Of a stretch of DNA of 64,000 nt, positions 5,892 through 37,134 are shown piece after piece. The notes below the pieces were generated by a model. That model was not told the origin of the DNA, did no database searches, and saw only the letters and a program-made list of their open reading frames with translations. Each line of letters starts with the position of its first letter. The first letter of the stretch is position 1. This stretch comes from Novosphingobium chloroacetimidivorans (GTDB lineage Bacteria; Pseudomonadota; Alphaproteobacteria; Sphingomonadales; Sphingomonadaceae): contig NZ_JACHLR010000002.1 in assembly GCF_014204535.1 (NCBI RefSeq), positions 186,001 to 250,000 of the forward strand. Reading direction: 5' to 3'. The position numbers and the translations under genes were made by a program.

Positions 5892-6232
5892 TGGCGGTGC
5901 TGCGGGTCGGGGCGCTCCCCGACGAGCCGCTCGCCGCCGCCGCCCGGTTCCATGCCGATATCCTGCCCCGCGCGCTTGCGGCGCTTGCCGGGGGCGAGAA
6001 CATGGTGATCGTGTTCGATGCCGCGGATCACACCCACCGCGACTGGCGACTGGCGATCGTGCGCGGGCTTGCGCGCCAGTATGCGCCCTTGCGCGTCAAC
6101 GCCGTGGCCGGCGGTGCGGACGACGCGATCGAAGCGGGTCTGCGTTATCTCGCCCAGGCGCCGGGCGTGACCGGACAATTGCTGCCGGTAGATGGAACAG
6201 GCGCGGGTCCGATGCTATATCAGCAGGGATGA
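5891..6232 (+). CDS. Short Rossmann-fold protein resembling the C-terminal part of an SDR
   Basis: The 113-residue protein starts on the last base of the folB stop and overlaps moaA by 4 bp (ATGA). Its second half, LRVNAVAGG then GLRYLAQAPGVTGQLLPVDG, closely follows the C-terminal region of short-chain dehydrogenases (RVNAVAPG, then a helix, then VTGQ-x-x-VDGG). The N-terminal cofactor motif GxxxGxG and the YxxxK catalytic pair are missing. Next to folB one often finds an SDR such as the pterin reductase FolM, so this may be a shortened relative with a structural or new role. Function unknown. Confidence 0.65.
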   Translation: MAVLRVGALPDEPLAAAARFHADILPRALAALAGGENMVIVFDAADHTHRDWRLAIVRGLARQYAPLRVNAVAGGADDAIEAGLRYLAQAPGVTGQLLPVDGTGAGPMLYQQG

Positions 6233-7236
6233 CACTTTCGCCCGCACCTCTCGTAGATCAGTTTCAGCGGCGGATCAGCTACCTGCGGCTCTCGGTCACG
6301 GACCGCTGCGACTTGCGCTGCACTTATTGCATGCCCGAGCGCATGACCTTCCTGCCGCGCAAGGACGTGCTCAGCCTGGAAGAGCTGCACGACCTGGCGC
6401 TCGGCTTCATAGAGCGCGGCATCACCAAGATCCGCCTGACCGGCGGCGAGCCGCTGGTGCGGCGCGACATGATGGAGCTGGTGCGTGCGCTTGGCCGCAA
6501 GGTCGGCGACGGGCTGGACGAGCTGACGCTCACCACCAACGGCACGCAGCTGAGTGAGTTCGCGGATGGCCTCTACGAAGCCGGCGTGCGGCGCATCAAT
6601 GTCTCGCTCGACACGCTCGATCGCGCCAGGTTCCAGCAGCTGTCGCGGCGGGACTCGCTGCCGCAAGTGCTGGAAGGGCTCGCCGCGGCCAAGGCGGCGG
6701 GGCTGAAGGTCAAGCTCAACACCGTCGCGCTCAAGGGTTTGAACGAGGACGAGATCCCCGACCTGATCGCCTGGGCGCACGGGCAGGGGTTTGAGGCGAC
6801 GTTGATCGAGGTCATGCCGCTGGGCGAAGTCGAGGAAGATCGCTTCGACCACTACCTGCCGCTGATGGCGGTGCGCGACGAGCTGGAGCAGCGCTGGACT
6901 CTCACCCCATCCGATCACCGCAGCGGCGGTCCGGCGCGCTACTTCGACGTGGCGGAAACCGGCGGCCGGCTCGGGCTGATCACGCCGCTGACGAACAACT
7001 TCTGCGAAGGCTGCAACCGCATTCGCGTGACCGCGACGGGCCAGCTCTACGCGTGCCTGGGCGGTGTCGAGCAGGTCGATCTGCGAGCGGCGTTGCGCTC
7101 GGACGATCCGCACACGGCTCTCACCGAGGGGCTGGATCTGGCGATGCGGATCAAGCCCGCGCGCCACAGCTTCGCCATCGACGCGCGCGGGCAGGCTCCG
7201 GCGTTGCCGAGGCACATGTCGATGACCGGCGGCTGA
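6229..7236 (+). CDS. moaA: GTP 3',8-cyclase
   Basis: MoaA is a radical SAM enzyme that, with MoaC, turns GTP into cyclic pyranopterin monophosphate, the first step of molybdenum cofactor synthesis. The 335-residue protein carries the radical SAM cluster CDLRCTYC near residues 25-32 and the LTGGEPLVRRD segment. The second, C-terminal 4Fe-4S ligands are CEGC followed 13 residues later by Cys. The usual C-terminal double glycine is present (MTGG). Start is the ATG at 6229, overlapping the preceding stop by 4 bp. moaD and moaE follow directly. Confidence 0.97.
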   Translation: MTLSPAPLVDQFQRRISYLRLSVTDRCDLRCTYCMPERMTFLPRKDVLSLEELHDLALGFIERGITKIRLTGGEPLVRRDMMELVRALGRKVGDGLDELTLTTNGTQLSEFADGLYEAGVRRINVSLDTLDRARFQQLSRRDSLPQVLEGLAAAKAAGLKVKLNTVALKGLNEDEIPDLIAWAHGQGFEATLIEVMPLGEVEEDRFDHYLPLMAVRDELEQRWTLTPSDHRSGGPARYFDVAETGGRLGLITPLTNNFCEGCNRIRVTATGQLYACLGGVEQVDLRAALRSDDPHTALTEGLDLAMRIKPARHSFAIDARGQAPALPRHMSMTGG

Positions 7237-7237
7237 C

Positions 7238-7480
7238 ATGGCGCTCAAGCTGGTGTTCCTGGGCCGGCTGGAAGATGCTGCCGGCGCGCCGGAGCTAGAG
7301 GTGGCCGCTGCGTCGTCTCTTGGCCAGGTGCTGGCGGGCCTCGACCCGGAGCTCGCGGCAGCCTTGCAGGGACCGCGCGTGAAACTGGCCGTCAACGGTG
7401 CCCTCGTGCAGGACAGCGATGCGCTGGTGCTGGGCGATGGCGACGAACTGGCGTTCCTGCCTCCCGTCAGCGGCGGTTGA
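7238..7480 (+). CDS. moaD: Molybdopterin synthase sulfur carrier subunit
   Basis: MoaD is the small ubiquitin-like subunit of molybdopterin synthase; its C-terminal glycine is adenylated and then thiocarboxylated to give sulfur to the pterin. The 80-residue product ends in the diagnostic Gly-Gly (FLPPVSGG). The MALKLVFLGRLEDAAG start and GDELAFLPPV segment fit the beta-grasp fold. It begins 1 bp after moaA ends and precedes moaE by 1 bp. Confidence 0.94.
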   Translation: MALKLVFLGRLEDAAGAPELEVAAASSLGQVLAGLDPELAAALQGPRVKLAVNGALVQDSDALVLGDGDELAFLPPVSGG

Positions 7481-7481
7481 G

Positions 7482-7937
7482 ATGGGCGCCGACGTTCGCC
7501 TGCTGACCGAGGCTTTCGATTTCGCTGCCGAACTGAGCGCCTTTACCAGCGCCCATCCCGCAGCCGGTGGTGTCGCAAGCTTCCTGGGCCAGGTGCGTGC
7601 ATCGGCGCATGACAGCGCAGTGGAGGCACTGGAATTGCGCCAATACGGCCCCCTCACCCTGCCGGCGATGGAGGACCTGGCGGCGCGTACGCAAGGCCGC
7701 TGGACGCTGGAAGGACTGTTGATCCTCCATCGCAGCGGCGAGATGCAACCGGGCGATCCGATCGTGCTCGTCGCCGCGGCGTCGCGCCATAGGCGCGAGG
7801 CGTTCGCCGCCGCCGAGTTCGCCATGGACCATCTCAAGTCCGAAAGCTGGTTCTGGAAACGCGAGAAGGTCGCAGGCGCCTGGCGCTGGATCGAGCCGCG
7901 AGCGCAGGACTTCGAGGACATCGCGCGCTGGAGTTGA
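7482..7937 (+). CDS. moaE: Molybdopterin synthase catalytic subunit
   Basis: MoaE is the large subunit of molybdopterin synthase and inserts two sulfurs into cyclic pyranopterin monophosphate. The 151-residue product shows GGVASFLGQVR near the N terminus, the HRSGEMQPGDPIVLVAAASRHR substrate region and the active-site lysine segment KSESWFWKREK. Length is typical (about 150). The ATG at 7482 follows the moaD stop by 1 bp; a longer in-frame start inside moaD is not supported. Confidence 0.95.
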   Translation: MGADVRLLTEAFDFAAELSAFTSAHPAAGGVASFLGQVRASAHDSAVEALELRQYGPLTLPAMEDLAARTQGRWTLEGLLILHRSGEMQPGDPIVLVAAASRHRREAFAAAEFAMDHLKSESWFWKREKVAGAWRWIEPRAQDFEDIARWS

Positions 7938-7949
7938 CGCGCGTCGCGT

Positions 7950-8474
7950 CTATCTCAGGCGTGCATCCAGACGGCTGATCACCGCCGTTTCGGACGAGAC
8001 CCAGCTCTCCACCTGATCGCGGGCTGCGCCGATCGCCGTTGCGGCCGGGCTCACTTGCTCGGGATGGGCGGCGCGCTCGTCGACGTAGAGCTGGTCGAGT
8101 TCGGCCAGCGCGGTCAGCGCGCCGCTGCGCGATGTCTGAAGGTCGGACAGCGCCACTTCCGCTGCCGTCCACCCATCGCTGCGCGCAGCTCCGGCTGCAG
8201 CCACCGCGCGTTCGGTGGCGGCCTGGCGCGCGGTGAAGCGGCCGTGGGCCTGGCGTGCGACGTCGACCAGTCCGGCGAGGCGGGTTGTCAGGTCGGCACT
8301 CGCCGGGGGCAGGGTCGGGATCGCATCGGCGCTGCCTGCCGCGGGGGCTCCGGATCCCTGCACCCGTTCGACCGGGCGCACTGCGAGCGAAGGATAATCG
8401 GTCGAAGCGGCGCATCCCGCCAGCAGCAGGGCGGCACCGAGAAGGAGGGCGGGGCTTGCGCTTGCGCGGATCAT
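7950..8474 (-). CDS. Predicted lipoprotein, unknown function
   Basis: The product (174 residues from the ATG at 8474) begins MIRASASPALLLGAALLLAGC, a signal peptide with lipobox LAGC, so it should be lipid-anchored. The mature part is Ala/Arg-rich and mostly helical, with a likely coiled stretch around TTRLAGLVDVARQAHGRF and LSDLQTSRSGALTALAELDQLY. I recognise no domain. An ATG 75 bp upstream would put 25 extra residues before the signal peptide, so the inner start was chosen. It is convergent with moaE, 12 bp apart. Confidence 0.72.
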   Translation of the reverse strand: MIRASASPALLLGAALLLAGCAASTDYPSLAVRPVERVQGSGAPAAGSADAIPTLPPASADLTTRLAGLVDVARQAHGRFTARQAATERAVAAAGAARSDGWTAAEVALSDLQTSRSGALTALAELDQLYVDERAAHPEQVSPAATAIGAARDQVESWVSSETAVISRLDARLR

Positions 8475-8745
8475 GCAAGCGCCATAGCACGGTGATGACG
8501 CCGCGCGAGAGGCAAATGCCGGCCGGTCGATCCTTTGAAGTCGGGCCATTCCCCGCCCGGCAAGGTATCACTGCACCGTTGACTCGAATCAGGGCTTGGA
8601 CTAACGGCACCGTTCTTCCGGCCACCCGTGCACGCACGGGCTGTCCGGCGCGTCGCCCGTGCTAGGATGCTGGTAGCAGGATCCGCAGCGGCCGGGGCAG
8701 GTTGTTTCGGCCTACGGGCATAGATTGAGATTGGGTAAGGGCACC

Positions 8746-9042
8746 ATGTTCGCAGTAGTGCGCACGGGCGGCAAGCAGTATCGGGTTGCCGCCGGAGACA
8801 AGATCGCGGTCGAGAAGCTGGCGGGTGAAGCCGGCGACAAGATCACGCTGGGTGACGTTCTGCTTGCGGGCAAGGACGGCGAAGTCGCCGACATTGCCGG
8901 CGTGACGGTCGCTGCCGAGATCATCGCCCAGGCCAAGAGCGAAAAGGTGATCGTGTTCAAGAAGCGCCGTCGCCACAACTATCGTCGCAAGAACGGCCAC
9001 CGCCAGCAGATGACCCTGCTGCGCATCGTGTCGGTCGGCTAA
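8746..9042 (+). CDS. rplU: 50S ribosomal protein L21
   Basis: L21 binds 23S rRNA and needs L20 for assembly. The 98-residue protein starts [18 protein letters not shown], the standard L21 beginning, and carries [21 protein letters not shown], the conserved RNA-binding region. An upstream in-frame codon would add seven residues not seen in the family, so the ATG at 8746 was used. rpmA follows after 28 bp, the almost universal rplU-rpmA order. Confidence 0.98.
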
Positions 9043-9070
9043 GCGCCCGCAAAGTTCGGAGTAGTTAGAA

Positions 9071-9340
9071 ATGGCACATAAGAAAGCAGGCGGCTCTTCG
9101 CGCAACGGTCGCGACTCGGCTGGCCGCCGCCTCGGCGTCAAGAAGTTCGGCGGTCAGGAAGTGATCGGCGGCAACATCATCATCCGTCAGCGCGGCACCC
9201 GCGTGTACCCGGGCGTGAACGTGGGCATGGGCAAGGATCACACCCTGTTCGCCCTCGCCGAGGGACGCGTGCGCTTCCACGACGGCAAGCTTGGCCGCAA
9301 GTACGTGTCGGTCGACCAGATGGCCGAAGCCGCCGAATAA
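9071..9340 (+). CDS. rpmA: 50S ribosomal protein L27
   Basis: L27 reaches toward the peptidyl transferase centre of the large subunit. The 89-residue product begins [16 protein letters not shown] and has [30 protein letters not shown] (read here as two adjacent conserved segments) and GRKYVSV, all hallmark sequence. The gene forms an operon with rplU and is followed by three hairpins, the last with a T-tract. Confidence 0.98.
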
Positions 9341-9355
9341 CGGATGGTCGATGAC

Positions 9356-9445
9356 GGGCCATCCTGCCGGGATGGCCCTGCCGGGCTTGCGTCATGCAAG
9401 CACCGGCCTTGGAGGGGAGAGGGCCATCAGCCCGCTCCCTTTTTT
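9356..9445 (+). terminator. Three consecutive hairpins after rpmA, the last a Rho-independent terminator
   Basis: Hairpin 1 is GGGCCATC (9356-9363) with GATGGCCC (9371-9378). Hairpin 2 is GCTTGC (9385-9390) with GCAAGC (9396-9401). Hairpin 3 is GGGAG (9415-9419) plus GGGC (9421-9424), loop CATCA, then GCCC and CTCCC ending at 9439, followed directly by six T at 9440-9445. The third has the classic intrinsic terminator form. Confidence 0.88.
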
Positions 9446-9575
9446 CGTGTCTCCCTTCAGCCACTTGGCACCGTTCGCAAGGAAATGCGTTCCCTTGCCG
9501 GCGGTGCGTAACGCCCCTGTCATCCGCCTGCTCTAACGGGCGGCGCGGGGGATGGTCGACTGGGAGACTTGGGTC

Positions 9576-15340: not shown

Positions 15341-16030
15341 TCAGTAGCAGCCTGAGCCGGTCAGAACGGCGGGCACGGTGCGTGCAAGGATCGCCAGATC
15401 GAGTGCGACGGTCCGGCTGCGGGCATAAGCCGTATCCAGCGCGACACGGCGGCGATACGTCGTGTTATTGCGACCGCTGATCTGCCACAGCCCGGTTATG
15501 CCGGGTTTTACCGACATATAATCGACGATGTACTGGCGGTACCGGATCATCTCGCCCTCGACGATGGGACGAGGGCCGACCATGCTCATCTCGCCGCGCA
15601 GGACGTTGAAGATCTGAGGCACCTCATCCAGGCTGGTGCGGCGCAGCAAACGCCCGATCGGGGTGACGCGCGGATCGTTGCGCAGTTTCTGATCGCGCTG
15701 CCATTCGGCGCGAGCCTGTGGATTCTCGGCCAGGTGCTGCTCGAGCACTTCGGCGGAGTTCACCACCATGGAACGGAACTTGTAGCACGGGAATGCCTGC
15801 CCACCCTTGCCGATGCGGCGATGCGCGAAGAGGACAGGGCCAGGCGAGGTCAGCTTCAAGCCTACGAAGATCAAGAGCAGCAACGGCAGCAGCACCATCA
15901 CCGCGCTGACCGCGATGGTGATGTCGATTGCCCGAATAAGCAAGGCATCGCGTGCCGCGGCGCGCGATGCCGCCCGGGGAAGCGGCTCGAGGCCCTGGAA
16001 GGGCAATGGGGGCGTAGCGCTGAGATCCAT
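15341..16030 (-). CDS. Polyprenyl-phosphate sugar-1-phosphate transferase (priming glycosyltransferase)
   Basis: Members of this family start exopolysaccharide repeat units by moving a sugar-1-phosphate from a nucleotide sugar to undecaprenyl phosphate. The 229-residue protein has one N-terminal transmembrane segment (about residues 33-58), the SPGPVLFAHRRIGKGG entry, KFRSM, TSLDEVPQIFNVLRGEMS with MVGPRP, and KPGITGLWQISGR, the full catalytic signature. It is the short ExoY-like form without extra transmembrane helices. Neighbouring glycosyltransferases, polymerase and export genes support an exopolysaccharide role. Confidence 0.94.
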   Translation of the reverse strand: MDLSATPPLPFQGLEPLPRAASRAAARDALLIRAIDITIAVSAVMVLLPLLLLIFVGLKLTSPGPVLFAHRRIGKGGQAFPCYKFRSMVVNSAEVLEQHLAENPQARAEWQRDQKLRNDPRVTPIGRLLRRTSLDEVPQIFNVLRGEMSMVGPRPIVEGEMIRYRQYIVDYMSVKPGITGLWQISGRNNTTYRRRVALDTAYARSRTVALDLAILARTVPAVLTGSGCY

Positions 16031-16101: not shown

Positions 16102-16620
16102 TCAGAAAGCGTAGTTGACGCTGTAGGCCGCCTTGCGGCGACGCATCGCGAAGCCGGTGAAGCCGACGCCTGCGATCATCATCAGCCAGGTCGCAAGCTC
16201 GGGAACCGCGGCCGAGAAGGTGACGTTGCCCGAATACGAACCGTTTCCGGTCGAGGTGCCGCCGACGAGGATGGTCTGGATGCCCGCGCCGACCGACTTG
16301 CTGACGCCGCCCGCAAACAGGCCGCCGCCGACCTCGACGAGGTTGATAGGCGTACCGTTGAAGGATGCAGTCAGGCCGGTAATGCCCGACAGTACCTTGA
16401 AGTAAAGAACGCCGACATCGGCTGTGCCGACGGACGGCGTGGTGAAGTTGATCTCGTCGTTAAATACACCAACCGGGATCTGCGCGTCCGAGAACGCGCC
16501 AGTGCCGTTGATGATGGTCTGCGTGCCGTTACCGGCAAACGATGTCGCGCTCGCAGGAGCACTGACGGCCAATGCCGAGGCGATCGCTGCGGAAGCAAAT
16601 AGAACTTGGCGTCCAGGCAT
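16102..16620 (-). CDS. Secreted protein with a PEP-CTERM-like sorting signal
   Basis: The 172-residue protein has an N-terminal signal peptide (VLFASAAIASALAVSAPASA) and a C-terminal tripartite sorting tail: VPELATW at residues 139-145, a hydrophobic helix (LMMIAGVGFTGFAM) and RRRK. This follows the PEP-x-x-W pattern common in sphingomonads, but with PEL in place of PEP, and with a further AAYSVNYAF tail. The body is Gly/Thr/Ser-rich with no known domain. The exosortase gene 0.9 kb away is its likely processing enzyme. Surface or exopolysaccharide-associated role is inferred. Confidence 0.85.
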   Translation of the reverse strand: MPGRQVLFASAAIASALAVSAPASATSFAGNGTQTIINGTGAFSDAQIPVGVFNDEINFTTPSVGTADVGVLYFKVLSGITGLTASFNGTPINLVEVGGGLFAGGVSKSVGAGIQTILVGGTSTGNGSYSGNVTFSAAVPELATWLMMIAGVGFTGFAMRRRKAAYSVNYAF

Positions 16621-16997
16621 AGTTACACACTCCTACTGGAAATTACGTAGCCGTTTGTTGAGGCGAATCAGAAATGTTCTGTGCCCATGCCAAGTTCTCA
16701 TGATTTATTTTGCAGTGCAACGTCAGCGCTAAGCGACGGATAAACGCCAAATTAACCGCGTTTGGAAGAGATAATCGAGATAGTTCACTCGATCGGCATT
16801 ATAAAACCAGGTAAACATACGTAGAAATCGCGCAGATTTACGTAGTTTATCGTCTCGATATTGGAGATATTAGGCCGGCGCTGGCCTATCTCCGCCCAGC
16901 TCGTTAACCGCAGTTGCGAGAAACGACGAAAGGCTGCAACCGGGCAGGCCGCCCTTCCTCAACGACCCTACCGAAGTGCGCAATCGCGTCGGGGAGC
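16621..16997. other. AT-rich upstream region with a near-palindrome, no gene
   Basis: The part from about 16680 to 16870 is far richer in A and T than its surroundings and contains no credible frame. It should carry the promoter of the minus-strand PEP-CTERM-like gene. A near-palindrome at 16818-16844 is described separately. Confidence 0.5.
16818..16844. promoter_or_regulatory. Near-palindromic candidate operator
   Basis: TACGTA (16818-16823) and AAATC (16825-16829) mirror GATTT (16835-16839) and TACGTA (16839-16844) around GCGCA. One extra G interrupts the left arm. Its place about 200 bp upstream of the PEP-CTERM-like gene and inside an AT-rich stretch suggests a protein-binding site; the regulator is unknown. 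Confidence 0.4.
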
Positions 16998-17171
16998 TCA
17001 GGTTAAGGTGACGAAGGCGACGATTCCAAGCAGCCACATGGCAGCGCCGACCGCAAGGCCCAGGATCAGTCCACGCGGCGCCCGGGCGGCATCGCGTCCG
17101 CCCGACCGATCACATTCATCCTGGTCCAATCTCATGCTCATCAATGGCTCGAAGTTTCGGGCGTGCAGCAT
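16998..17171 (-). CDS. Small single-pass membrane protein, unknown function
   Basis: From the ATG at 17171, which has a GAGGAAAG ribosome site just upstream, the frame encodes 57 residues. It has a charged N-terminal half (RLDQDECDRSGGRDAAR) and a C-terminal transmembrane helix (GLILGLAVGAAMWLLGIVAF). I recognise no family. The clear ribosome site and the helix favour a real gene, but the short length leaves doubt. It lies between the PEP-CTERM-like gene and the exosortase gene. Confidence 0.5.
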   Translation of the reverse strand: MLHARNFEPLMSMRLDQDECDRSGGRDAARAPRGLILGLAVGAAMWLLGIVAFVTLT

Positions 17172-17469
17172 GCCATCTTTCCTCGACGATGCCGACTCGT
17201 CCACGCACGAGTTTTCGCGGCCTCACGCATGGGCGTACGCTGAAATGGTGGCGGGCTGCTGAAGAGGCACGTCGGACATTCCCTGAGAGGATGATCCTCT
17301 AGGCAATAGATCCAAAACGGCTTCAGTGCACCCCATCTGCGCGGCAGCCCATCTTCCGGAATAGCACCGCGCCACACCTCCGCTCACGTGTTTCTACGTG
17401 GCCTAATCGGATCACCTTGGACATGATCTCGATAGGCGAACCGCCCCGCCTCGCTCTACGCGAAGGGCC

Positions 17470-18375
17470 ATGCAAGCTCTTGCGCCCGATCTGGTCGAAG
17501 TCGACACCTGCGTGAGCGACACGTATCGCGCGGAGCCGCGCTGGTGGGTCCGCCACTGGTACGTGGCTCTGTCTGCGCTCATCATGGCCATTCCCGGCCT
17601 TGCTGCCTTGGCGCGTAACTACTGGTCGACCGAGCAGGGCGCCGCCGGTCCGATCATACTGCTGACCGGGTTGTGGTTGCTGCACCACGAGGCATCCGGG
17701 CTGCGCACGCAATTCGATCGCGCGGCCGGGTGGCTGGTGCCGCTCGGGCTCGTGGTCGTCGGACTATGCACTGTGATCGCCGCCGTCACGGCCAAGCAGT
17801 GGCTCCAGTTACTCGGTATCTATCTGAGCCTGATCATGCTGCTCTATGCGATGATTGGATGGCGTCAGCTGCTGTCGCTGCGCATACCGATCCTCTATCT
17901 TGCCTTCGTCATTCCGCCGCCGGACAACCTTGTCGTGCCGCTGACGCACGCGCTGAAGGATCTCGTCGCCGGCGGGGCGGTCGGCGCTCTGGGCATGCTT
18001 GGTTATCCCGTCGCTCGGGATGGGGTGCTGCTTTACATCGGGCAGTACGAGCTTGTCGTGGCGGCTGCTTGTTCGGGAATGAATTCGATCCTCAGCCTGA
18101 CCGCGATCGGGCTGTTCTACGTGTACCTGCTCCATCGCGCCCACATGAGATATGCCGCGCTGTTGGCGCTGCTGATGGTGCCGGTGGCACTGTTCGCGAA
18201 TGCGGTGCGGGTCATCGCCTTGCTGCTGATCACGTACTACGGCGGCGAGGCTGCCGGGCAAGGGATCCTGCATGACGCGGCAGGCCTGTTCATCTTTCTT
18301 GTCGCGCTGGGCACGCTGCTTGCGCTCGATCGCATGCTCGCGCCGCTGCTGATCCGTGGGCGAGCATCGCGGTGA
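17470..18375 (+). CDS. xrtV: Exosortase (XrtV-like)
   Basis: Exosortases are multi-pass membrane transpeptidases thought to cleave and transfer proteins with PEP-CTERM-type tails. The 301-residue protein has about eight hydrophobic segments and the three catalytic residues: Cys201 in AAACSGMNSI, Arg247 in FANAVRVIAL and His268 in ILHDAAGLFIF. It is followed without a gap by an EpsI-domain gene (GTGA overlap) and then by a PPIase-like gene. Assignment to the V subtype rests on this gene order and on a small accessory-like protein at 51983-52225; membership in the exosortase family is firm, the subtype less so. Confidence 0.88.
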   Translation: MQALAPDLVEVDTCVSDTYRAEPRWWVRHWYVALSALIMAIPGLAALARNYWSTEQGAAGPIILLTGLWLLHHEASGLRTQFDRAAGWLVPLGLVVVGLCTVIAAVTAKQWLQLLGIYLSLIMLLYAMIGWRQLLSLRIPILYLAFVIPPPDNLVVPLTHALKDLVAGGAVGALGMLGYPVARDGVLLYIGQYELVVAAACSGMNSILSLTAIGLFYVYLLHRAHMRYAALLALLMVPVALFANAVRVIALLLITYYGGEAAGQGILHDAAGLFIFLVALGTLLALDRMLAPLLIRGRASR

Positions 18376-19100
18376 CTGCGCTTCCCTTCAACCTGCGCCA
18401 GCCCTTGCCTAGGGCGAGCCGCCGAGAGGTGCTGATCGGATCACTGGCGCTTGCGGTGACTGCGGCCTCCGAACTGATGCAGCCGCGCCGCATGTTCGCG
18501 CGATTGTCCCAAGACCAGCTGGATGCGGCGATCCCCAAGCGCGTAGGTGCCTACCGCTTCGCATCCAGCTCGGGGCTGATCCTTCCGGCCGGCGACGAGC
18601 TGTCGCAGAAGCTATATGATCAGGTGCTCACCCGGGTGTACCAGGCCGACGGTTTGCTGCCGATCATGGCGCTGTTCGCCTACGGCAGCGTGCAGAACCT
18701 GTCGCTTGAGCTGCATCGACCCGAAGAATGCTACCCGCAGCAGGGCTTCACGATAACCGAACCGCAGCCAGTGCCGCTGGTGATGAGCGAAGCGACGATC
18801 CCGGCCAGCGTGCTCACGGCGCGTCGCGCCAACGGCTATGTGGAGCAAGTGCTATTCTGGTCGCGCATCGGCACGCATTTCCCTGAGAGCCGCACGGCGC
18901 AGTCGATCCTGGTGGCGAGGGAGAACTTTGCCGGGCGCGTGCCCGATGGATTGCTGGTCCGCCTGTCCGTGCCGACTCCGGACCTGCCGCTCGGCCTGCA
19001 GGCGGCACGATCGTTCACCGCCGAGCTTGACCACGCGCTGTCGCCGCGTGGGCGCACGATCGTGTTCGGCGACAAGGATAGAGAGGACAGCCTGCCATGA
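18372..19100 (+). CDS. EpsI-domain protein associated with the exosortase
   Basis: The 242-residue product begins at a GTG overlapping the exosortase stop by 4 bp. After an N-terminal segment with Arg-Arg (SRREVLIGSLALAVTAASE) comes an EpsI-type (DUF3485-like) domain: the family hallmarks seen are LPIMALFAYG, LHRPEECYPQQGF with the conserved Cys, and EQVLFWSRIG. EpsI proteins accompany exosortases in exopolysaccharide loci, either fused or separate. It probably acts at the periplasmic face of the membrane. Its exact biochemical role in the family is unknown. Confidence 0.83.
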   Translation: MTALPFNLRQPLPRASRREVLIGSLALAVTAASELMQPRRMFARLSQDQLDAAIPKRVGAYRFASSSGLILPAGDELSQKLYDQVLTRVYQADGLLPIMALFAYGSVQNLSLELHRPEECYPQQGFTITEPQPVPLVMSEATIPASVLTARRANGYVEQVLFWSRIGTHFPESRTAQSILVARENFAGRVPDGLLVRLSVPTPDLPLGLQAARSFTAELDHALSPRGRTIVFGDKDREDSLP

Positions 19101-19927
19101 TCACGCCGTATCAAGCCGCAAAGCCGCTCGTGATGATGGCGTGCTGCCTGGCAGCGCTGCTCGCCGGCTGTGACAAGAAGGCTCCCGAAGGCCAGGTGGT
19201 GGCCGTTGTGAATGGCGAGGAAGTCACTCGCCGCGAACTCGCCACCGAGCCTGGAGCTGCAAACGGCGATGTTGCGCAGCCGCAGCTCGCGGCGATGTTG
19301 AGCGGTGTCGTCGATCGCAAGCTGGCTGCCGCCGAAGCCAAGAGGCTCGAACTGGATCAGACGCCTCGCTTCGTAGCCCAGGCCAAGCGGCTGCAGGAGG
19401 TGATGCTCAGCCGCACGCTGTTCGATCGGTGGATCAGCGAGATCCCGCCACCGCAGCCTGCCGCCATTGCTGCTTACGTGGCCCAGAACCCGCAACGCTT
19501 CGATGGCCGCAAGCTGTTTCTTATCGACCGGATCGAGACGGCGGATAGTGGTCCCAACAAAGAGGCCATTGGGCCGCTTCAAACCAATGACGCGATCGCG
19601 GCGTACCTCGATGCGCACGACCAGCCTTATCGTCGGGAGCGAGCGGTGCTCGATTCGACCGGCCTGCCGCTCGCACTGTATCGTAAGCTGGTGACGCTCC
19701 CGCCGGAAACGCCGATCGCCGTGGCGCAGGGCGGACGGCTGCTGATTGTCGCCGCACAGCAAACGCGCGATGCACCGCTGCCTCCGGCCGAGAAGTCGGC
19801 CGCAGCTGTGCTGGCGCTAAAGCAGGTGAAAGTGCAGGAGAAGCTGGCGGCGCTCCGCAAGACAGCCAAGGTTTCCTACCAGCCGGGCTACCGGCCGAGC
19901 AGCTCGGATGCAAGTCAGGCGCCCTAA
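19097..19927 (+). CDS. EpsD-like peptidyl-prolyl isomerase lipoprotein
   Basis: The 276-residue protein overlaps the EpsI gene by 4 bp (ATGA). It has a lipoprotein signal peptide ending in LLAGC and a SurA/EpsD-like body: VVAVVNGEEVTRREL, the usual start of the chaperone N-domain, then helices ending in LQEVMLSRTLFDRW, then a parvulin-like region (residues about 120-230) that lacks an obvious complete active site. EpsD homologues are regular members of exosortase/EPS loci. A chaperone role in the periplasm is inferred. Confidence 0.8.
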   Translation: MITPYQAAKPLVMMACCLAALLAGCDKKAPEGQVVAVVNGEEVTRRELATEPGAANGDVAQPQLAAMLSGVVDRKLAAAEAKRLELDQTPRFVAQAKRLQEVMLSRTLFDRWISEIPPPQPAAIAAYVAQNPQRFDGRKLFLIDRIETADSGPNKEAIGPLQTNDAIAAYLDAHDQPYRRERAVLDSTGLPLALYRKLVTLPPETPIAVAQGGRLLIVAAQQTRDAPLPPAEKSAAAVLALKQVKVQEKLAALRKTAKVSYQPGYRPSSSDASQAP

Positions 19928-20216: not shown

Positions 20217-21311
20217 TTAGTCGCTGGTGACTGCCTCGATCAGCGTGCGAGCACTTCTCTCCCACGTGAAGCGCTCAAGTCTCTCACTGGCAGCCGATCG
20301 CTGTGCGCTTCCACGCTGCGGAAAGTCCCAATGCTGCCTGAGCAGGCTGACTAATCCATCCAGATCGGACAGACTGAAGTAACTGGCGGCATCGCCACAG
20401 ACCTCGCGAAGAACCGGAATGTCGGATACGATCGTGGGACAGCCACTTGCCATCGCTTCAAGGGGCGGGATGCCGAAACCTTCGTAGACGCTGGGGAAAA
20501 CATGCGCGGTCGCATGCGAGTAGAGCGCGGCAATTTTCGCATCGCTGAGCCCGGGGGCGAGCACGACATCCTCGCCCCCTATGGCGCGACCGTCTCCGAA
20601 GACGCCGCGGTCGAGCGAGCCGGCAACCACCAACTTGGCGCCCGCGCGTCCGATGTGCGAGAATGCCTCTAGCAGGAAGCGCAGGTTCTTGTTGGGCGCA
20701 TGGTTGCCGACGAACAGGAAATAGCGCTGAGGCTCCACACCGAGAGCATCGAGCACCCTTTCGTCTCTGTCGCGTCCGATGAAATGGTCGCATCCATTGT
20801 TGATCACGACGATCCTGTCTGGATCGAGATGCAGCACTTGCGAAAGCTCGTCCCGGGAGAACTGCGACACGGTGCCGATCCGGCCGGTTGCCGCCAGCGC
20901 TCTGCCGAGCGCTTTGTGCATCAGACGATAGCGCCGGCCGAAGTTGCCGGGTGTGCGGAATACCGCCGCATCATGGATCACCACCAGACGGTCGCGGTGC
21001 AGCAGCGGGCCTGAATTGCCCAGGTTGACCAGTCGGGCTCCCCGCGAGGCAACCGCCAAGTCGCGCTGCTCCCACAGATGGCCGTCGCCGGCCCCCACTT
21101 GCTCGATGCGGATGGCCTGCAATCGGAACTGTGGATCTGCGCCGGAAGGCACCAGCAGCCGCCACTGCCGGCCACCGAAACGTGTATGTTCAGAATGGAT
21201 CAAACGATCGGCTGCTTGAACGATCTCACGACTATAACGCTGAACACCGCTGAGTTTCTGCGTAAGAAATCGGCCATTGATGACAATATCCTTTGGCGGT
21301 GTCGCAGTCAT
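20217..21311 (-). CDS. GT4 family glycosyltransferase
   Basis: The 364-residue protein has the GT-B architecture: an N-terminal domain starting DIVINGRFLTQKLSGVQRYSREI and a nucleotide-sugar-binding C-terminal domain with FLFVGNHAPNKNLRFLLEAF and the E-x7-E motif in VYEGFGIPPLEAMASG. The form with GVQRY near the start is common in mannosyl/rhamnosyl transferases of exopolysaccharide loci. Donor and acceptor cannot be read from sequence. Its start lies only 37 bp from the start region of the divergent GT4 gene, leaving very little room for two promoters. Confidence 0.88.
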   Translation of the reverse strand: MTATPPKDIVINGRFLTQKLSGVQRYSREIVQAADRLIHSEHTRFGGRQWRLLVPSGADPQFRLQAIRIEQVGAGDGHLWEQRDLAVASRGARLVNLGNSGPLLHRDRLVVIHDAAVFRTPGNFGRRYRLMHKALGRALAATGRIGTVSQFSRDELSQVLHLDPDRIVVINNGCDHFIGRDRDERVLDALGVEPQRYFLFVGNHAPNKNLRFLLEAFSHIGRAGAKLVVAGSLDRGVFGDGRAIGGEDVVLAPGLSDAKIAALYSHATAHVFPSVYEGFGIPPLEAMASGCPTIVSDIPVLREVCGDAASYFSLSDLDGLVSLLRQHWDFPQRGSAQRSAASERLERFTWERSARTLIEAVTSD

Positions 21312-21348
21312 AATTCGCCAGGTTTCCAGATTTATGGGGTCTTAGGCC

Positions 21349-22569
21349 ATCATCATACTTCACCTCAGCTCCCTTTATCCACCCGCATCGGTCGGCGGAG
21401 CGGAGAAAGTTTCCGCCATATTGGCCGAGACGCAGGTTCTGGCTGGTCATCAGGTCCATGCCTGTTCGCTCGTTCGTGACCCGCAACCGCGAGGGGAGCG
21501 ACACGGCGTCGCCACGCGCCCACTCGGCGCGCGCAACCCATTGTGGATCGAAAGCTCGCACCGCTATCCGTCTCCGCTCCGCCTGGCGAACAAGGCGGTT
21601 ACGGTTCTGAACCGGCGGGTTGGCTCCGAATTCGCGGCGCTTCTGGACGACATAGAACCGGATGTTCTGCACACCCACTCCATGGTCGAACTGCCGCCTT
21701 CTGTATGGGACCGGGCCGCCCGCCGTGGGGTGCCGATCGTGCACACGCTGCACGACTACGATTTGCTGTGCATCCGCGGTGCGCTCTACAAGGACGGACG
21801 CAGGTGCCGGCCGCGCCACGCGGCCTGCCGCCTGCTGTCGGCGCCCAAGCGCGCCTTGCACGATCGGATCGACGTGGTCGCGGCCGTGTCGCGCACGGTG
21901 CTCGACACCCATCTCGAGCATGGACTGTTCCATCATCTTCCGCCGGAGCGGCGCCGGGTGGTGTGGAACCCGGCAAGGCTGGCCCAGGCAGGTCCGCGGA
22001 CTCCCCGCAAGGCAGGCGAACCCTTGAGGTTCGGATTTCTCGGTCGTCTCGTGGGAGAGAAGGGCCTCGGGCCGATCCTGGACGCATGCCGCCTGGTGGG
22101 GGGCAGTGGCTGGACGCTGCGCGTGGCAGGCGACGGACCAGAGCGCGCGGCCTTCGAACATCAGTCGCGCGGGCTCCCCATACGCTTCGAGGGATATGTG
22201 GAGGCCGCCGCGTTCCTCAGCGAGATCGATGTCCTGATCTGCGCACCTTTATGGGACGAGCCGTTCGGCCTGACCATGGTCGAGGGCTACGCCGCAGGGT
22301 GCCGCGTCATCGGGACCCGTGCCGGCGTGATCGGCGAAGTCGTCGAACGCGTGGAACCGGGCTGGACCGTCGCTCCGGGCGATGTGGCGGCCATGGCTGC
22401 TGCCATCGCGCGCGCGATCGCCGAAGGGCGAGCGCTACCCGCTGATAGGCAAGGCGCGGTCGCAGCCCTGCTCGAAGAACTTGCGCCCCGCACCGTCGCT
22501 CAGACCTATCTCGAACTTTACCGCACTGCGGGCGACGCGGCGACGCCGTCGCTTGCGGCACACGGGTGA
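21349..22569 (+). CDS. GT4 family glycosyltransferase lacking a standard start codon
   Basis: Alignment with its paralogue at 22575 (MRILHLSMLYPPHILGGAE) shows the conserved N terminus begins at 21349: the codons ATC ATC ATA CTT CAC CTC match M-R-I-L-H-L, but the first is ATC, and a TAG stands at 21343-21345. The nearest standard start in frame is the TTG at 21421, which would remove the donor-site GGAE segment. The rest is a full GT4 enzyme with FGFLGRLVGEKGLGPILDA and an E-x7-E-like WDEPFGLTMVEGYAAG. Either a rare start codon is used (GGGG lies about 9 bp upstream) or the gene is damaged. Confidence 0.75.
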   Translation: MIILHLSSLYPPASVGGAEKVSAILAETQVLAGHQVHACSLVRDPQPRGERHGVATRPLGARNPLWIESSHRYPSPLRLANKAVTVLNRRVGSEFAALLDDIEPDVLHTHSMVELPPSVWDRAARRGVPIVHTLHDYDLLCIRGALYKDGRRCRPRHAACRLLSAPKRALHDRIDVVAAVSRTVLDTHLEHGLFHHLPPERRRVVWNPARLAQAGPRTPRKAGEPLRFGFLGRLVGEKGLGPILDACRLVGGSGWTLRVAGDGPERAAFEHQSRGLPIRFEGYVEAAAFLSEIDVLICAPLWDEPFGLTMVEGYAAGCRVIGTRAGVIGEVVERVEPGWTVAPGDVAAMAAAIARAIAEGRALPADRQGAVAALLEELAPRTVAQTYLELYRTAGDAATPSLAAHG

Positions 22570-22574
22570 CCGCC

Positions 22575-23783
22575 ATGCGCATACTCCATCTCAGCATGCT
22601 CTATCCGCCACACATCCTGGGCGGCGCGGAGCGCTCCGTCGCCATGCTGGCCGAGGCGCAGACCGCGCTTGGTCATCGCGTGGCTGCGGCATGCACCACT
22701 CCGGGGGCTTTCGTGCGCGAGGAACGCAACGGCGTGCAGGTCTTCCGCATGCCGCACGAGACGCGTTTCTGGGCGGAGGAATGGCCCCAACACGGCAAGC
22801 TCGAACGTGGGTGGCGCAAGTTCTCGCAGCAGTTCAACTATCGCCTGCGTGACCATTTCGCCCGCGTCATCGAGGAGTTCGCGCCGGACATCGTCCACAC
22901 CCATTCGATGGTCGATGTCTCGACCACGGTGTGGGAGGCGGCGGCCGAGCGGAACCGCCCGATCGTGCACACCTTGCGCGACTACGACCTGCTCTGCGCC
23001 GACGCATCGATGTGGCACGATGGAGGGCCTTGCGGGGTCAAGTGCAAGGTCATGACCTTCGCAAAAGTCGGGCGTCACCGCCTGACCGATGGCGTTGCCG
23101 CGGTCGGTCAGGAGACGCTCGAAATCCATCGACGCGCCGGCTTCTTCGACCATCTGCCCTCGGACCTGCAGCGCGTGATCTGGAACCCTGCCGTGGTCGA
23201 AGGCGCGGGCGAGGACTATGAGCGCCCCTCGCGCGAAGGGCAGCCCTTCACGATCGGCTATCTGGGCCGCATCAACGAAGAGAAGGGCGTCGGCACCCTG
23301 ATCGATGCCGCGCGACGGCTTCGTCCCGGCAATTGGCAGGTGGTGATCGCGGGCAAGGCCAACAATTCGCTCGAGCCGTTCGTCGAACGGGCCGCAGGCC
23401 TGCCCGTGACGTTTCCCGGCTTCATGGATGCACGCGCGTTTTTCGAAGGCATCGATGTCATGGTCGCCCCGTCGATCTGGGCCGAGCCTCTGCCGCGCAC
23501 GATCCTGGAGTCCTATGCGATGGGCGTGCCGGCGATCGGCGCGCGGTCCGGAGGCATCCCGGATTTGATCGGCCATGACAACGCCGAGTGGTTGTTCGCC
23601 CCGGGTGATGCCGAGCAACTCGCCGACCGGCTGCAACGAGCCGTCGATCACGGTCGCGAACGGCTGCCTGGCAAGACCGCATTCGGGCACGTGCTGCGCG
23701 AGACTCGCCCTCCGATCGTCGCGGAGCGCTATCTCGCGTTCTACCGCGATGTGATCGCCGCGCGCCTGGCGCGGGCAGCCTGA
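22575..23783 (+). CDS. GT4 family glycosyltransferase
   Basis: The 402-residue protein is a paralogue of the upstream gene. It shows MRILHLSMLYPPHILGGAERSV (read here as two adjacent conserved segments), THSMVDVSTTVWEAA, the TLRDYDLLC segment, IGYLGRINEEKGVGTLIDAA and an E-x7-E-like WAEPLPRTILESYAMG in which the usual Gly-Phe is changed. A GTG at 22566 overlapping the previous stop is an alternative start adding three residues; the ATG at 22575 was preferred because it matches the conserved N terminus. Substrates unknown. Confidence 0.88.
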   Translation: MRILHLSMLYPPHILGGAERSVAMLAEAQTALGHRVAAACTTPGAFVREERNGVQVFRMPHETRFWAEEWPQHGKLERGWRKFSQQFNYRLRDHFARVIEEFAPDIVHTHSMVDVSTTVWEAAAERNRPIVHTLRDYDLLCADASMWHDGGPCGVKCKVMTFAKVGRHRLTDGVAAVGQETLEIHRRAGFFDHLPSDLQRVIWNPAVVEGAGEDYERPSREGQPFTIGYLGRINEEKGVGTLIDAARRLRPGNWQVVIAGKANNSLEPFVERAAGLPVTFPGFMDARAFFEGIDVMVAPSIWAEPLPRTILESYAMGVPAIGARSGGIPDLIGHDNAEWLFAPGDAEQLADRLQRAVDHGRERLPGKTAFGHVLRETRPPIVAERYLAFYRDVIAARLARAA

Positions 23784-23791
23784 GGGCGGCC

Positions 23792-24964
23792 ATGCGTATC
23801 CTGCACGTCGCGGAGTCCGTCAAAGGGGGATGCGGCACCTATCTGAACCAAGTCGTCGCATCGCAACTGAGCGACCCGGCGATACACGATCTCCATGTCG
23901 TGGTGCCTGATGAACACATCGTGCAAGTGCCGGACATTCCCACGGCCAAGCGCAGCCTCTTTGCCAGTCGGGGTCGCTCTCCGGCATCGCTCCTGGCGCT
24001 CTGGCGCGCCACCGACCAAGCCGTGCGCGAATTCAAGCCGGACTGCGTCCACCTGCACTCGACTTTCGCGGGTGCCGTTGGACGGATAGGCCTGATGCTG
24101 AGGGCGCAGCGCCCGCCAATCGTCTACTGCGCGCATGGCTGGGCCTTCGACATGGCAGGTTCGATTGCAAAGCAACGGTGTGTCGCCCGCGTGGAGCGCT
24201 GGCTCTCGCGCCGGTGTGAAGGCGTGATCGCCATCTCCGACTACGAGCGGGCGCGCGGCATCGAAGTCGGCATTGCGCCGGAACGCATCGTCACCGTGCC
24301 GAACGGCATCGGCGACGCGCCGCCTCCGCCTCCGCCTGAGTGCAGTCCGATCCGTCGCGTCCTATTCGTCGGCAGGCTGGATCGGCAAAAAGGCGTCGAC
24401 GTGCTGCTGCAGGCCATGCGCGACTTGGGCGGACGTGTCGACTTGCGGGTGATCGGCGCGTCCGTTGTCGGTGACGAGGCGCCGGTGCTCGATCAACCGG
24501 GAGTGACCGCACTGGGATGGTGCGATCAGGACCGGATATGCCGCGAACTCGCCTGGGCCGACTGTGTGGTCGTTCCCTCACGATGGGAGGGGTTCGGGCT
24601 TGTCGCGGTCGAAGCCATGCGAGCCGGCCGGGCGGTCGTGGCGTCCGATGTCGGAGGTCTCGCGCAAGTGGTCGAGCACGGCCGTACCGGCTGGCTGGTT
24701 CCACCCGAAGATCCCGTTGCGCTGGCAATGGCGCTGGTCGCGCCGAGCGATGCGGATCTGCGCGCGGCGGGCGTTGCCGGGCGGCAGCGCTTCCTGCGGC
24801 ACTTCACCATCGATCGGACAGTCACGGCCCTGCGTGCCGTATACCGGCAAGCCATCGCCATGCGCAGCAGCATCAATCACGCCTTTGCCCACGAGTTCGG
24901 GGAGGTCGGCATGGCACCACTCGGCGCTCGCGCCGAGCGCTTGCCGCGGATGTCCTCTCTGTGA
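23792..24964 (+). CDS. GT4 family glycosyltransferase
   Basis: The 390-residue protein, 8 bp downstream of the previous gene, has MRILHVAESVKGGCGTYLNQ, CAHGWAFD, the donor-domain entry RVLFVGRLDRQKGVDVLLQAM and the canonical E-x7-E motif SRWEGFGLVAVEAMRAG. A proline run (six Pro) links the two domains near residue 182. The last 25 residues are poorly conserved. It is the last of the glycosyltransferase run before the arabinose island. Confidence 0.88.
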   Translation: MRILHVAESVKGGCGTYLNQVVASQLSDPAIHDLHVVVPDEHIVQVPDIPTAKRSLFASRGRSPASLLALWRATDQAVREFKPDCVHLHSTFAGAVGRIGLMLRAQRPPIVYCAHGWAFDMAGSIAKQRCVARVERWLSRRCEGVIAISDYERARGIEVGIAPERIVTVPNGIGDAPPPPPPECSPIRRVLFVGRLDRQKGVDVLLQAMRDLGGRVDLRVIGASVVGDEAPVLDQPGVTALGWCDQDRICRELAWADCVVVPSRWEGFGLVAVEAMRAGRAVVASDVGGLAQVVEHGRTGWLVPPEDPVALAMALVAPSDADLRAAGVAGRQRFLRHFTIDRTVTALRAVYRQAIAMRSSINHAFAHEFGEVGMAPLGARAERLPRMSSL

Positions 24965-27360: not shown

Positions 27361-28527
27361 TCAGCGCGGCGATGTCGTGACGCGATAGATCATCACGTGG
27401 CGATAGGGCTTGCCCGGATCCACGCGGGTCGAGGCGAAGTTGGGGTGGTTGGGTGCATCCGGGAACTTCTGCGGCTCGAGCGCGATCCCATCGCCCATGC
27501 GATAGAGGTGCCCCTGCTTGCCGAGGTAAGTCCCGTCGAGAAAATTGCCGGAGTAGAACTGGAGGCCAGGCTCTGTAGACAGCACTTCGAGCACGCGACC
27601 CGAAACCGGATCCTCCAGGCGGGCGGCGAGTTGCGGGTCCTGGGTCACGCCCTTGTCCAGTGCAAAGTTGTGGTCGAACCCGCGGCCGTAGACGATCTGC
27701 TGGTCGCGACCATCCCGGATACCGACCGCAACCCGCTTGGGCCTGGTGAAGTCGAACGCAGTACCGGTGACCGCACGCAGCTCGCCGGTGGGGATCAGCT
27801 TGTCGTCCACCGGTGTGTAGCGGCTGGCCGGGATGGTCAGCACATTGGTCAGCGCATCGCGCTCAGAGCCTTCGCCGGCCATGTTGAAGATGGCGTGATT
27901 GGTAAGGTTGAGCACGGTCGGCTTGTCGGTGGTCGCGTCGAAGGCGATCGTGAGGTTGCCGGCCTCGTCGAGCGAGTAGGTGGCCTTGACCTTCACGGTG
28001 CCGGGATAGCCGGAGTCGCCATCGGGGCTGACGAGCGAGAGCACGGCCGTTGCCGTCTTGCCGGACTTGACGGACTCCAGCTTCCAGTTCTTGACGTCGA
28101 AGCCCTTGCCGCCACCGTGCAGTGACTGCCCGTGATCGTTTTGCCGCAGAGTGTGGGTCCTGCCATCCAGCGTGAACCGACCGCCGGCGATGCGGTTGCC
28201 GTAGCGGCCGATCGTGGCACCCCAGAAGTTCGGACGCGTCTCGAAATCGGAAACCTTGTCGTAGGCGAGCAGGACATCGGCCACCTTGCCATCACGATCG
28301 GGTACCTCTAGCTTCCACAAGGTAGCGCCAAACGTGAGGATCGTAGCGGATATGCCGTTGTCGGCCTTGAGCGTGACCGCGGTGACCGGGCTGCCGTCCG
28401 ACAGCGTTCCCGCGTTCGCCTGGGTTGCCTGCGCGGCAAGGGCCGGGCTGGCCCCCAGCGCGAGTGCCAGGCCAGAGGCGAGTGCCGGTGATAGACGCGT
28501 CGCAGAAGGTGTCGCCATATTCCTCAT
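27361..28527 (-). CDS. Secreted aldose 1-epimerase (mutarotase)
   Basis: Mutarotases interconvert alpha and beta anomers of aldoses. The 388-residue product has a signal peptide (SGLALALGASPALA) so it should act in the periplasm. Family residues include GRYGNRIAGGRF, the LHGGGKGFD loop, the catalytic His in NLTNHAIFNMAG and the catalytic Glu in GIALEPQKFPDAPNH. It heads the minus-strand unit with the dehydratase. A second ATG nine bases in (28518) is an equal start candidate. An operator-like TAGTCCGACAA lies 85 bp upstream. Confidence 0.92.
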   Translation of the reverse strand: MRNMATPSATRLSPALASGLALALGASPALAAQATQANAGTLSDGSPVTAVTLKADNGISATILTFGATLWKLEVPDRDGKVADVLLAYDKVSDFETRPNFWGATIGRYGNRIAGGRFTLDGRTHTLRQNDHGQSLHGGGKGFDVKNWKLESVKSGKTATAVLSLVSPDGDSGYPGTVKVKATYSLDEAGNLTIAFDATTDKPTVLNLTNHAIFNMAGEGSERDALTNVLTIPASRYTPVDDKLIPTGELRAVTGTAFDFTRPKRVAVGIRDGRDQQIVYGRGFDHNFALDKGVTQDPQLAARLEDPVSGRVLEVLSTEPGLQFYSGNFLDGTYLGKQGHLYRMGDGIALEPQKFPDAPNHPNFASTRVDPGKPYRHVMIYRVTTSPR

Positions 28528-28611
28528 GTCCTCGATCCCGCTACACGACTTGCCTCGCGGCTGCGCCAGGGTCGATCAGGCCAGACCATTGACGAAGCTA
28601 TTGCCGACCTA

Positions 28612-28622
28612 TAGTCCGACAA
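28612..28622 (-). promoter_or_regulatory. Candidate GntR/FadR-type operator, divergent mutarotase/permease promoter
   Basis: On the minus strand this reads TTGTCGGACTA, an exact fit to TNGTNNNACNA, the consensus known for FadR-subfamily GntR regulators. It overlaps a likely -10 (TATAGT, 28610-28615, after TTGACG at 28589-28594, spacing 15) toward the permease, and a TATAGG preceded by TTGCGC (spacing 18) toward the mutarotase. Binding would block both directions. Confidence 0.7.
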
Positions 28623-28684
28623 ATAGAAGAAGCGCAAGCTGGTTCGCCGGGCATTGTGCAAGCGCTGAATAGAGAGGACCTTGC

Positions 28685-30025
28685 ATGCCCCCTGTGGCCT
28701 CATCCACTGCCACCCAGGCCGCTTCGGCACAAACCGGCACCGTGCGCTACGCACCGGCTCTCACGCTGCTTGCCAGCCTGTTCTTCATGTGGGGCTTCAT
28801 CACCGTCATCAACGGCACACTGCTGCCGCATCTTCGGTCGGTGTTCGAGCTCAGCTACTTCCAGGCGGCGCTGATCGAGTCGGTCTGGTTCATCGCCTAT
28901 TTCTTCGCGTCGATCCCCTCCGCGCTGCTGATCGAGCGGATCGGCTACAAGAAGTCGCTGGTCACCGGCCTGTTGATCATGGCGACCGGAGCCGTGGGCA
29001 TGACGGTTGGGGCGATCATTCCATCTTACGGCGTCACACTGCTGATGCTGTTCGTCATCGCTAGCGGCATCACGCTGCTGCAGGTGGCGGCAAACCCCTA
29101 CGTGGCCGTGATCGGCAAGCCGGAAACCGCCTCGGCCCGCCTCAACCTGGTGCAGGCGATGAACTCCGCCGGGACGATGCTGGCGCCGCTCTTCGGCGGT
29201 TATCTCATCCTTGGCCGCAGCAAGGGCGGGACGGCCGACGCCGGCACGGTCCTGACCCAGGCCGAGCGCCTGGCCGATGCTCAGTCGGTCATCCTGCCCT
29301 ACTTGCTGGTGGCGGCGGTGCTGGTGGTGCTGGCCTTGATCATCGGTCGCTTCCCCCTGCCTGCGCTCGGCGCGGCGACGCAGCGCTCCAAGGTGCACGA
29401 GAAGACGGGCTCGATCGTCTCGCGGTTCTGGAACCATCCCTTATGGCAGCACCGCAACCTGACCTTCGGCGTCGGTGCGATCTTCATCTACCTCATTGCC
29501 GAGATCGGCGTCGGCAATCTTTTCGTGAACTTCGTGGTGCGGCCAGAGATCGGCAACATGACCGCCACCGAGGCGAGCCACTACCTGACCCTGCTGTGGG
29601 GCGGGATGATGGTCGGCCGCTTCGTGGGTTCGGCGATCATGGCCAAGGTGGATGCGGCCAAGGTGCTGGCGGTGGCGGCCGTCGGCGCGTTCGTGGTCAT
29701 GGCGATAGCGGTCTTCTCCACCGGTCACGTGGCCATGTGGGCGCTGATTTCGGTCGGCCTGTTCCACTCGATCATGTTCCCGACGATCTTCACGCTGGGC
29801 ATTCGCGGCCTGGGCCCGCTGACCGAGGAAGGCTCGGGCCTGCTGGTCATGGCGATCGCCGGTGGCGCTCTGGTGGCGGTGCAGGGCTGGATCGCGGATC
29901 ACTATGGCCTGCAGACTTCCTTCCTGCTCACCGCCGCATGCGAGCTCTACATCCTGTTCTACGCGCTGTGGGGCAGCAAGCCGACCCATGTCGAGCCGGA
30001 CGTGGCACCAGTCGGGAACGAGTAA
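28685..30025 (+). CDS. FucP-family sugar/proton symporter (MFS)
   Basis: The 446-residue inner-membrane protein has about twelve hydrophobic segments and the FHS (fucose-glucose-galactose) hallmarks: FFMWGFITVINGTLLPHLRSVFEL, FFASIPSALLIERIGYKKSL and GITLLQVAANPYVAVIGKPETASARLNLVQA (each given here in overlapping conserved parts). In this context the likely substrate is L-arabinose or a short arabino-oligosaccharide. It is divergent from the mutarotase gene and shares its operator region. Confidence 0.88.
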   Translation: MPPVASSTATQAASAQTGTVRYAPALTLLASLFFMWGFITVINGTLLPHLRSVFELSYFQAALIESVWFIAYFFASIPSALLIERIGYKKSLVTGLLIMATGAVGMTVGAIIPSYGVTLLMLFVIASGITLLQVAANPYVAVIGKPETASARLNLVQAMNSAGTMLAPLFGGYLILGRSKGGTADAGTVLTQAERLADAQSVILPYLLVAAVLVVLALIIGRFPLPALGAATQRSKVHEKTGSIVSRFWNHPLWQHRNLTFGVGAIFIYLIAEIGVGNLFVNFVVRPEIGNMTATEASHYLTLLWGGMMVGRFVGSAIMAKVDAAKVLAVAAVGAFVVMAIAVFSTGHVAMWALISVGLFHSIMFPTIFTLGIRGLGPLTEEGSGLLVMAIAGGALVAVQGWIADHYGLQTSFLLTAACELYILFYALWGSKPTHVEPDVAPVGNE

Positions 30026-30034
30026 TCCGACCTC

Positions 30035-30055
30035 GTCCCGGGCTCGACCCGGGAC
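30035..30055. terminator. Palindromic hairpin between convergent permease and GntR genes
   Basis: GTCCCGGG (30035-30042) pairs with CCCGGGAC (30048-30055) across CTCGA. Its symmetry and place between two convergent genes suit a bidirectional terminator; no T-run is present. The same short motif type is often dispersed in sphingomonad genomes. Confidence 0.55.
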
Positions 30056-30145
30056 CGGTTCCGCCATGTGGCGCGTTTAGCGGATTGCTTCGGCTCGGTC
30101 CGTCGTCGCGGAAGTCCGGGGCGGTCAGCCCGGTCCGGCTTCCTG

Positions 30146-30898: not shown

Positions 30899-30982
30899 TG
30901 TGGGCAGTTCCTCCGCCGAGGAACGTAACAGCGCTTTCCCAAGGAAGGAATACAAACGTTGCCTTTCTTCCGCACAGGAAAT

Positions 30983-30993
30983 ATGTCGGAGTA
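30983..30993 (+). promoter_or_regulatory. Degenerate operator copy at the aldehyde dehydrogenase promoter
   Basis: ATGTCGGAGTA matches nine of eleven positions of TTGTCGGACTA. It overlaps a likely -10 (TATGTC at 30982-30987) that lies 17 bp after TTGCCT at 30959-30964. It is 15 bp before the dehydrogenase start, immediately upstream of its AGGAGA ribosome site, and 85 bp upstream of the regulator's own start. Confidence 0.55.
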
Positions 30994-31007
30994 AATAGGA
31001 GACATCC

Positions 31008-32534: not shown

Positions 32535-32592
32535 CCCAATCCAACGTCCGCGGCGCGTCCTCGAGAAGACGCGCCGCGACAGGGAGAGATCC

Positions 32593-33588: not shown

Positions 33589-33591
33589 GCG

Positions 33592-34518: not shown

Positions 34519-34541
34519 CAAAGCCTCAGGGAGAGGACACG

Positions 34542-37105: not shown

Positions 37106-37134
37106 CCACGAAGAATACGTCGGGAGAGGACACA

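Follow-up and report, generated by a model that had tools for sequence, protein, structure and literature searches.

An exosortase V locus of Novosphingobium chloroacetimidivorans and the repertoire-wide loss of the second proline in the PEPxxWA-type tails of its genome

Exosortase systems are regarded as bacterial machinery for trimming surface proteins and sorting them, and which residues exosortases read is, to our knowledge, still an open question. In the PEP-CTERM/EpsH system, the Pro-Glu-Pro of the tail is described as nearly invariant in the excerpt of PMC1569441 used here. Some exosortases go with non-PEP tail motifs, as do XrtC (VPDSG) and XrtD (VPLPA). The literature search found no paper for PEPxxWA, none on exosortase V as judged on titles and the first part of abstracts, and none combining exosortase with Novosphingobium.

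The window analysed here is a stretch of 64,000 nucleotides of N. chloroacetimidivorans (contig NZ_JACHLR010000002.1). It carries an exosortase gene, an EpsI-type gene and an EpsD-like gene, in this order, with 4-base overlaps between the successive frames of the plus strand, and a 172-aa protein encoded on the minus strand which ends in VPELATWLMMIAGVGFTGFAMRRRKAAYSVNYAF; in this tail VPELATW is followed by a hydrophobic stretch, RRRK and then AAYSVNYAF. The initial annotation had read the locus correctly at the level of the letters (position of the open reading frames, tail and catalytic residues). The features are as follows.

15341-16030, minus strand: bacterial sugar transferase, exopolysaccharide initiation type (PF02397, 205.5 bits)
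16102-16620, minus strand: FxDxF-family PEP-CTERM protein, putative exosortase substrate, 172 aa (NF038126, 66.5 bits, cut-off 50)
16105-16131, minus strand: nine-residue C-terminal extension AAYSVNYAF, with a V-x-V/N-x-YA-like end as in four other XrtV-linked substrates
16132-16143, minus strand: basic cluster RRRK, from the translation
16186-16206, minus strand: VPELATW motif, PEPxxWA type with the second Pro changed to Leu (NF035944, 36.6 bits, cut-off 35)
16998-17171, minus strand: unlisted ORF of a 57-aa single-TM miniprotein, between substrate and exosortase (tblastn)
17470-18375, plus strand: exosortase V (XrtV), 301 aa (NF035943, 332.3 bits over the full length, cut-off 313; PF09721, 174.2 bits)
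18070-18072, plus strand: codon of Cys201, presumed nucleophile (60/60 aligned XrtV proteins)
18208-18210, plus strand: codon of Arg247 (59/60 in the same alignment, one gap)
18271-18273, plus strand: codon of His268 (60/60)
18372-19100, plus strand: EpsI-family exosortase-associated protein, nearest to the V-type (general EpsI model TIGR02914, 71.3 bits, cut-off 42.8)
19097-19927, plus strand: EpsD-like PPIase lipoprotein, lipobox LAGC (TIGR02925, 76.5 bits, E 2.3e-21, below the cut-off of 108.9)
20217-24964, mixed strands: glycosyltransferase genes of an exopolysaccharide neighbourhood (Pfam group-1 glycosyltransferases in 3/3 scanned: 20217-21311, minus; 21421-22569, plus; 23792-24964, plus)

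The scores of the NCBIfam models NF035943, NF038126 and NF035944 lie above their cut-offs, indicating that the matches of the exosortase and of the substrate are not due to chance. The substrate reaches the PEPxxWA-CTERM model with VPELATW in place of the literal Pro-Glu-Pro of that family, and is borderline for the general Pfam PEP-CTERM model (19.0 bits for the protein and 22.7 bits in the genome search; cut-off 20.7). The V-type EpsI model (NF045608) is the best-scoring one for 18372-19100, although its cut-off is not reached (216.1 against 228 bits). The earlier assignment to an XrtV with EpsI- and EpsD-type partners was right, with the enzyme above its cut-off and the V-type EpsI and EpsD models falling short of theirs. 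The AlphaFold2 model of the exosortase, a confident one (pLDDT 87.3, pTM 0.81), matched no PDB structure at E up to 0.001, and the PDB held no sequence relative of the protein (one chance match, E 0.66). A promoter scan gave no site, and terminator-like sites were about as numerous as the shuffle mean.

The miniprotein ORF has a similar ORF at the equivalent place in N. fluoreni (locus L041; tblastn E 8e-6) and a counterpart in N. lentum (L042), about 2.4 kb before its XrtV (tblastn E 4e-4); the other loci searched gave nothing below E 0.5. Further along the window, a gene cluster for the use of sugars occupies positions 27361-41644, with an aldose epimerase, an MFS transporter, an aldehyde dehydrogenase, a C-terminal domain of an arabinofuranosidase, two GH43 genes and a TonB receptor.

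The genome (4.61 Mb, 88 contigs) encodes three exosortases: the window XrtV, a second XrtV on contig C33 (316.6 bits, cut-off 313) sharing 36% identity with it, and one XrtA (319.8 bits, cut-off 208). The second XrtV lies in a full cassette of its own (L039, G000 C33:2000-20000; 5729-9458), together with an FxDxF substrate ending in VPEASTW, a V-type EpsI (NF045608, 237.5 bits, cut-off 228) and an EpsD-like gene. Nineteen tails of the genome exceed the Pfam cut-off and 16 exceed the PEPxxWA cut-off; the three Pfam-only tails were rejected as additional PEPxxWA tails, those on C1 and C12 being of the classic kind without Trp and that of C53a having a stop before the basic cluster. This last one (G000:C53:1379-1441) is a PEP-CTERM tail, VPEASSW, which ends early near an intact PEP-CTERM gene on contig C53. 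With three exosortases and 16 PEPxxWA tails in the genome, the window substrate is not alone: the description of a solitary substrate holds at the locus, but genome-wide the tail census leads to the rejection of a single-substrate reading.

Positions 1 (V), 2 (P), 3 (E) and 7 (W) are invariant in the 16 tails, and the T before W is replaced by V in one of them. The second Pro, at position 4, is replaced in 11/16 (A in seven, T in two, L in two) and kept in five. Two paralogs with 78% identity over 100 residues outside the tail (C20a and C45) differ at this letter, one being PEP and the other PEA, and the second PEL tail of the genome (VPELSTW, contig C30) otherwise resembles its PEA and PET tails. 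Because position 4 varies across the 16 tails and between these paralogs, the Leu of the window tail is read as occupying a permissive position. Judged from the tails, position 4 is permissive in this genome, and the second Pro of the tag does not seem essential in N. chloroacetimidivorans; many tagged proteins of the genome carry a change of this kind, the odd letter in the window tag being one case.

Within the family, tails that have lost the second Pro are the exception. A DNA pattern (V-P-E-x-x-T-W-x-[ML]) was run on 298 family genomes in three parts according to the position-4 codon, with matches in 81 genomes for the second Pro, in 32 genomes for codons starting with A, G or T, and in one genome for CA, CG and CT codons; the pattern requires E and T, and tails departing there fall outside the counts. 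It gave 869 tails in 84 genomes, 787 of them with Pro, and 19 of 20 fetched tails were confirmed as real C-termini. Pro was kept in 783/854 tails from the other genomes of the draw versus 4/15 in N. chloroacetimidivorans, the lowest Pro share among the 60 genomes that had at least four tails; in 32 of these, Pro was the only residue at position 4. The corresponding Fisher p of 2.8e-9 is too strong, because several tails of the genome resemble one another and close paralogs occur in two pairs (C43/C53 with 84% and C5/C26b with 92% identity outside the tail). PEL was found in two of the 869 tails, both in N. chloroacetimidivorans, with no TTA or TTG among the A/G/T-codon matches; outside the draw, it was found in N. 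fluoreni and G084.

The scan of named genomes yielded 60 XrtV loci, the enzymes nearest to that of the window being those of N. fluoreni (67%) and N. lentum (63%), with which it also groups in a quick tree of 74 rows (the second exosortase of G028, which gave no match, is left out, and the placement of the C33 enzyme and other long branches is unsure). The neighbour of the N. fluoreni XrtV is a VPELATW ortholog of the window substrate (64% identity over 172 residues), and the three matching tails of that genome have L, T and V at position 4. In N. lentum the matching tail is PEI and belongs to a protein similar to the window substrate, encoded 24 kb away from the XrtV gene of that species. Under the tail filter, the 60 loci had 25 PE-x tails in their flanks, 24 PEP and one PEL, that of N. 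fluoreni. Other XrtV-linked relatives of the window substrate are PEP (L061, L082) or PEA (C33). The XrtV-linked FxDxF substrates share an ending after the basic cluster: YSVNYAF in the window and in L041, VRVRYAF in L061, VRVRYAM in L082 and VRVAYA in the C33 paralog.

Relaxed tails are not confined to these three species. They are also present in genus g29, whose enzymes fall in another XrtV clade (Pro in 3/7 tails of G028, 19/25 of G272, 7/17 of G317, 15/24 of G387 and 1/2 of G354), in G084 (Pro in 2/8), in G040 (0/2) and in G116 (1/4), where the only exosortase found is of the XrtA branch. G107, also with an XrtA-branch enzyme as the only one found, has PEP in 4/4 tails, and G113, which shares the genus of N. 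chloroacetimidivorans and has an XrtV of another clade, in 12/12. G350 (35 pattern tails) and G010 (7) gave no exosortase at E 1e-8, assembly gaps being possible. A strict link between the relaxed position and a single XrtV clade was not established, as relaxed tails accompany other XrtV clades and the XrtA-only G116. Kinship of the organisms and enzyme specificity account equally well for the tail pattern, and the two are not separable here. Tentatively, and with rather long odds, the XrtV clade of the branch of N. chloroacetimidivorans, N. fluoreni and N. lentum might have relaxed its recognition, V-P-E-x-x-T-W without the second Pro being the working signal and the repertoire drifting there as a consequence.

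Very probably, this is one of the two XrtV loci of the genome and of an ordinary kind; its substrate is one of about 16 and has Leu at a position no longer fixed in the tails of this genome and of its nearest XrtV relatives, the signal being carried by V, P, E and W. The gene content, the family memberships, the tail census and the conservation are observed here and speak for it; the cleavage, the acceptor and the pairing of enzyme and tail we infer. The PEA-tailed FxDxF substrate of the second XrtV cassette counts in favour of a permissive position, and the V-type EpsI and EpsD models below cut-off at the window locus count against the explanation as a whole. Following the model in the excerpt of PMC1569441, Sec-dependent export would most likely leave the FxDxF substrate anchored through its C-terminal helix; XrtV would cleave it close to VPExxTW, using Cys201 (with Arg247 and His268), and it would go on to an acceptor; the EpsI and EpsD-like partners would take part, in an exopolysaccharide setting.

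The initial annotation had raised a different reading, in which the window XrtV and its neighbour form a pair with a private PEL specificity, apart from the other substrates. N. fluoreni shows the same adjacency, both species having PEL, and PEL is rare in the draw, its only two tails being from N. chloroacetimidivorans; however, the second of these lies on another contig and resembles the PEA and PET tails, the XrtV-linked relatives of the substrate carry PEP or PEA, and the similar protein of N. lentum has PEI and is encoded away from the XrtV gene. A specificity of its own is not supported, given 16 PEPxxWA tails, three exosortases and a changed position where the tails have A, P, T or L, and we regard it as improbable. 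Of the two observations named beforehand as speaking against it, many other substrates were found, whereas PEL tails proved rare and not common among unrelated exosortases. Even less credible is a decaying window tail that has ceased to be processed: its deviation from the norm of the family does concern a residue that the excerpt of PMC1569441 describes as nearly invariant, but all its other features are intact, the N. fluoreni ortholog keeps the Leu, and the change is present across the whole repertoire.

It is conceivable, though on balance doubtful, that XrtA or the second XrtV processes most VPExxTW tails and that the window XrtV is secondary. The four tails each of G116 and G107, with a single XrtA-branch exosortase, favour this, and the PEPxxWA tails of these genomes and of G350 and G010 are the reason why XrtV is not established as acting on every one of the 16 tails. 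Against it, the C1 and C12 tails without Trp look like a natural XrtA set, which is suggestive, and the NF035944 tail family is presumably linked by name to XrtV.

What deserves to be retained is that the second Pro has been lost across the repertoire, which amounts to a natural experiment, of modest scale, on exosortase recognition: most tails have lost this letter with V, P, E and W fixed, which suggests which letters matter, and the paralogs differing by PEP and PEA at one letter are ready-made test substrates.

Among known systems, the locus resembles the exosortase V and PEPxxWA-CTERM system (NF035943, NF035944) in its enzyme and tail, both over the cut-offs, and in the order exosortase, EpsI, EpsD-like, and differs from it in the second Pro, replaced in most tails here and kept in most tails elsewhere in the draw. 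Exosortase B (TIGR03113) and the B-type EpsI (NF045609) are the next-best models, at 165.7 and 131.8 bits well under their cut-offs of 275 and 220. The non-PEP motifs of XrtC and XrtD offer a parallel at the level of the tail, but the window enzyme is far under the cut-offs of both (41.4 against 300 and 100.6 against 400 bits, respectively). With the PEP-CTERM/EpsH system, as outlined in the excerpt of PMC1569441, it shares the motif, helix and basic cluster of the tail, the Cys, Asn-x-x-Arg and His-x-x-x-Gly of the enzyme, and the exopolysaccharide setting; unlike that system, the tails of N. chloroacetimidivorans have mostly lost the second Pro.
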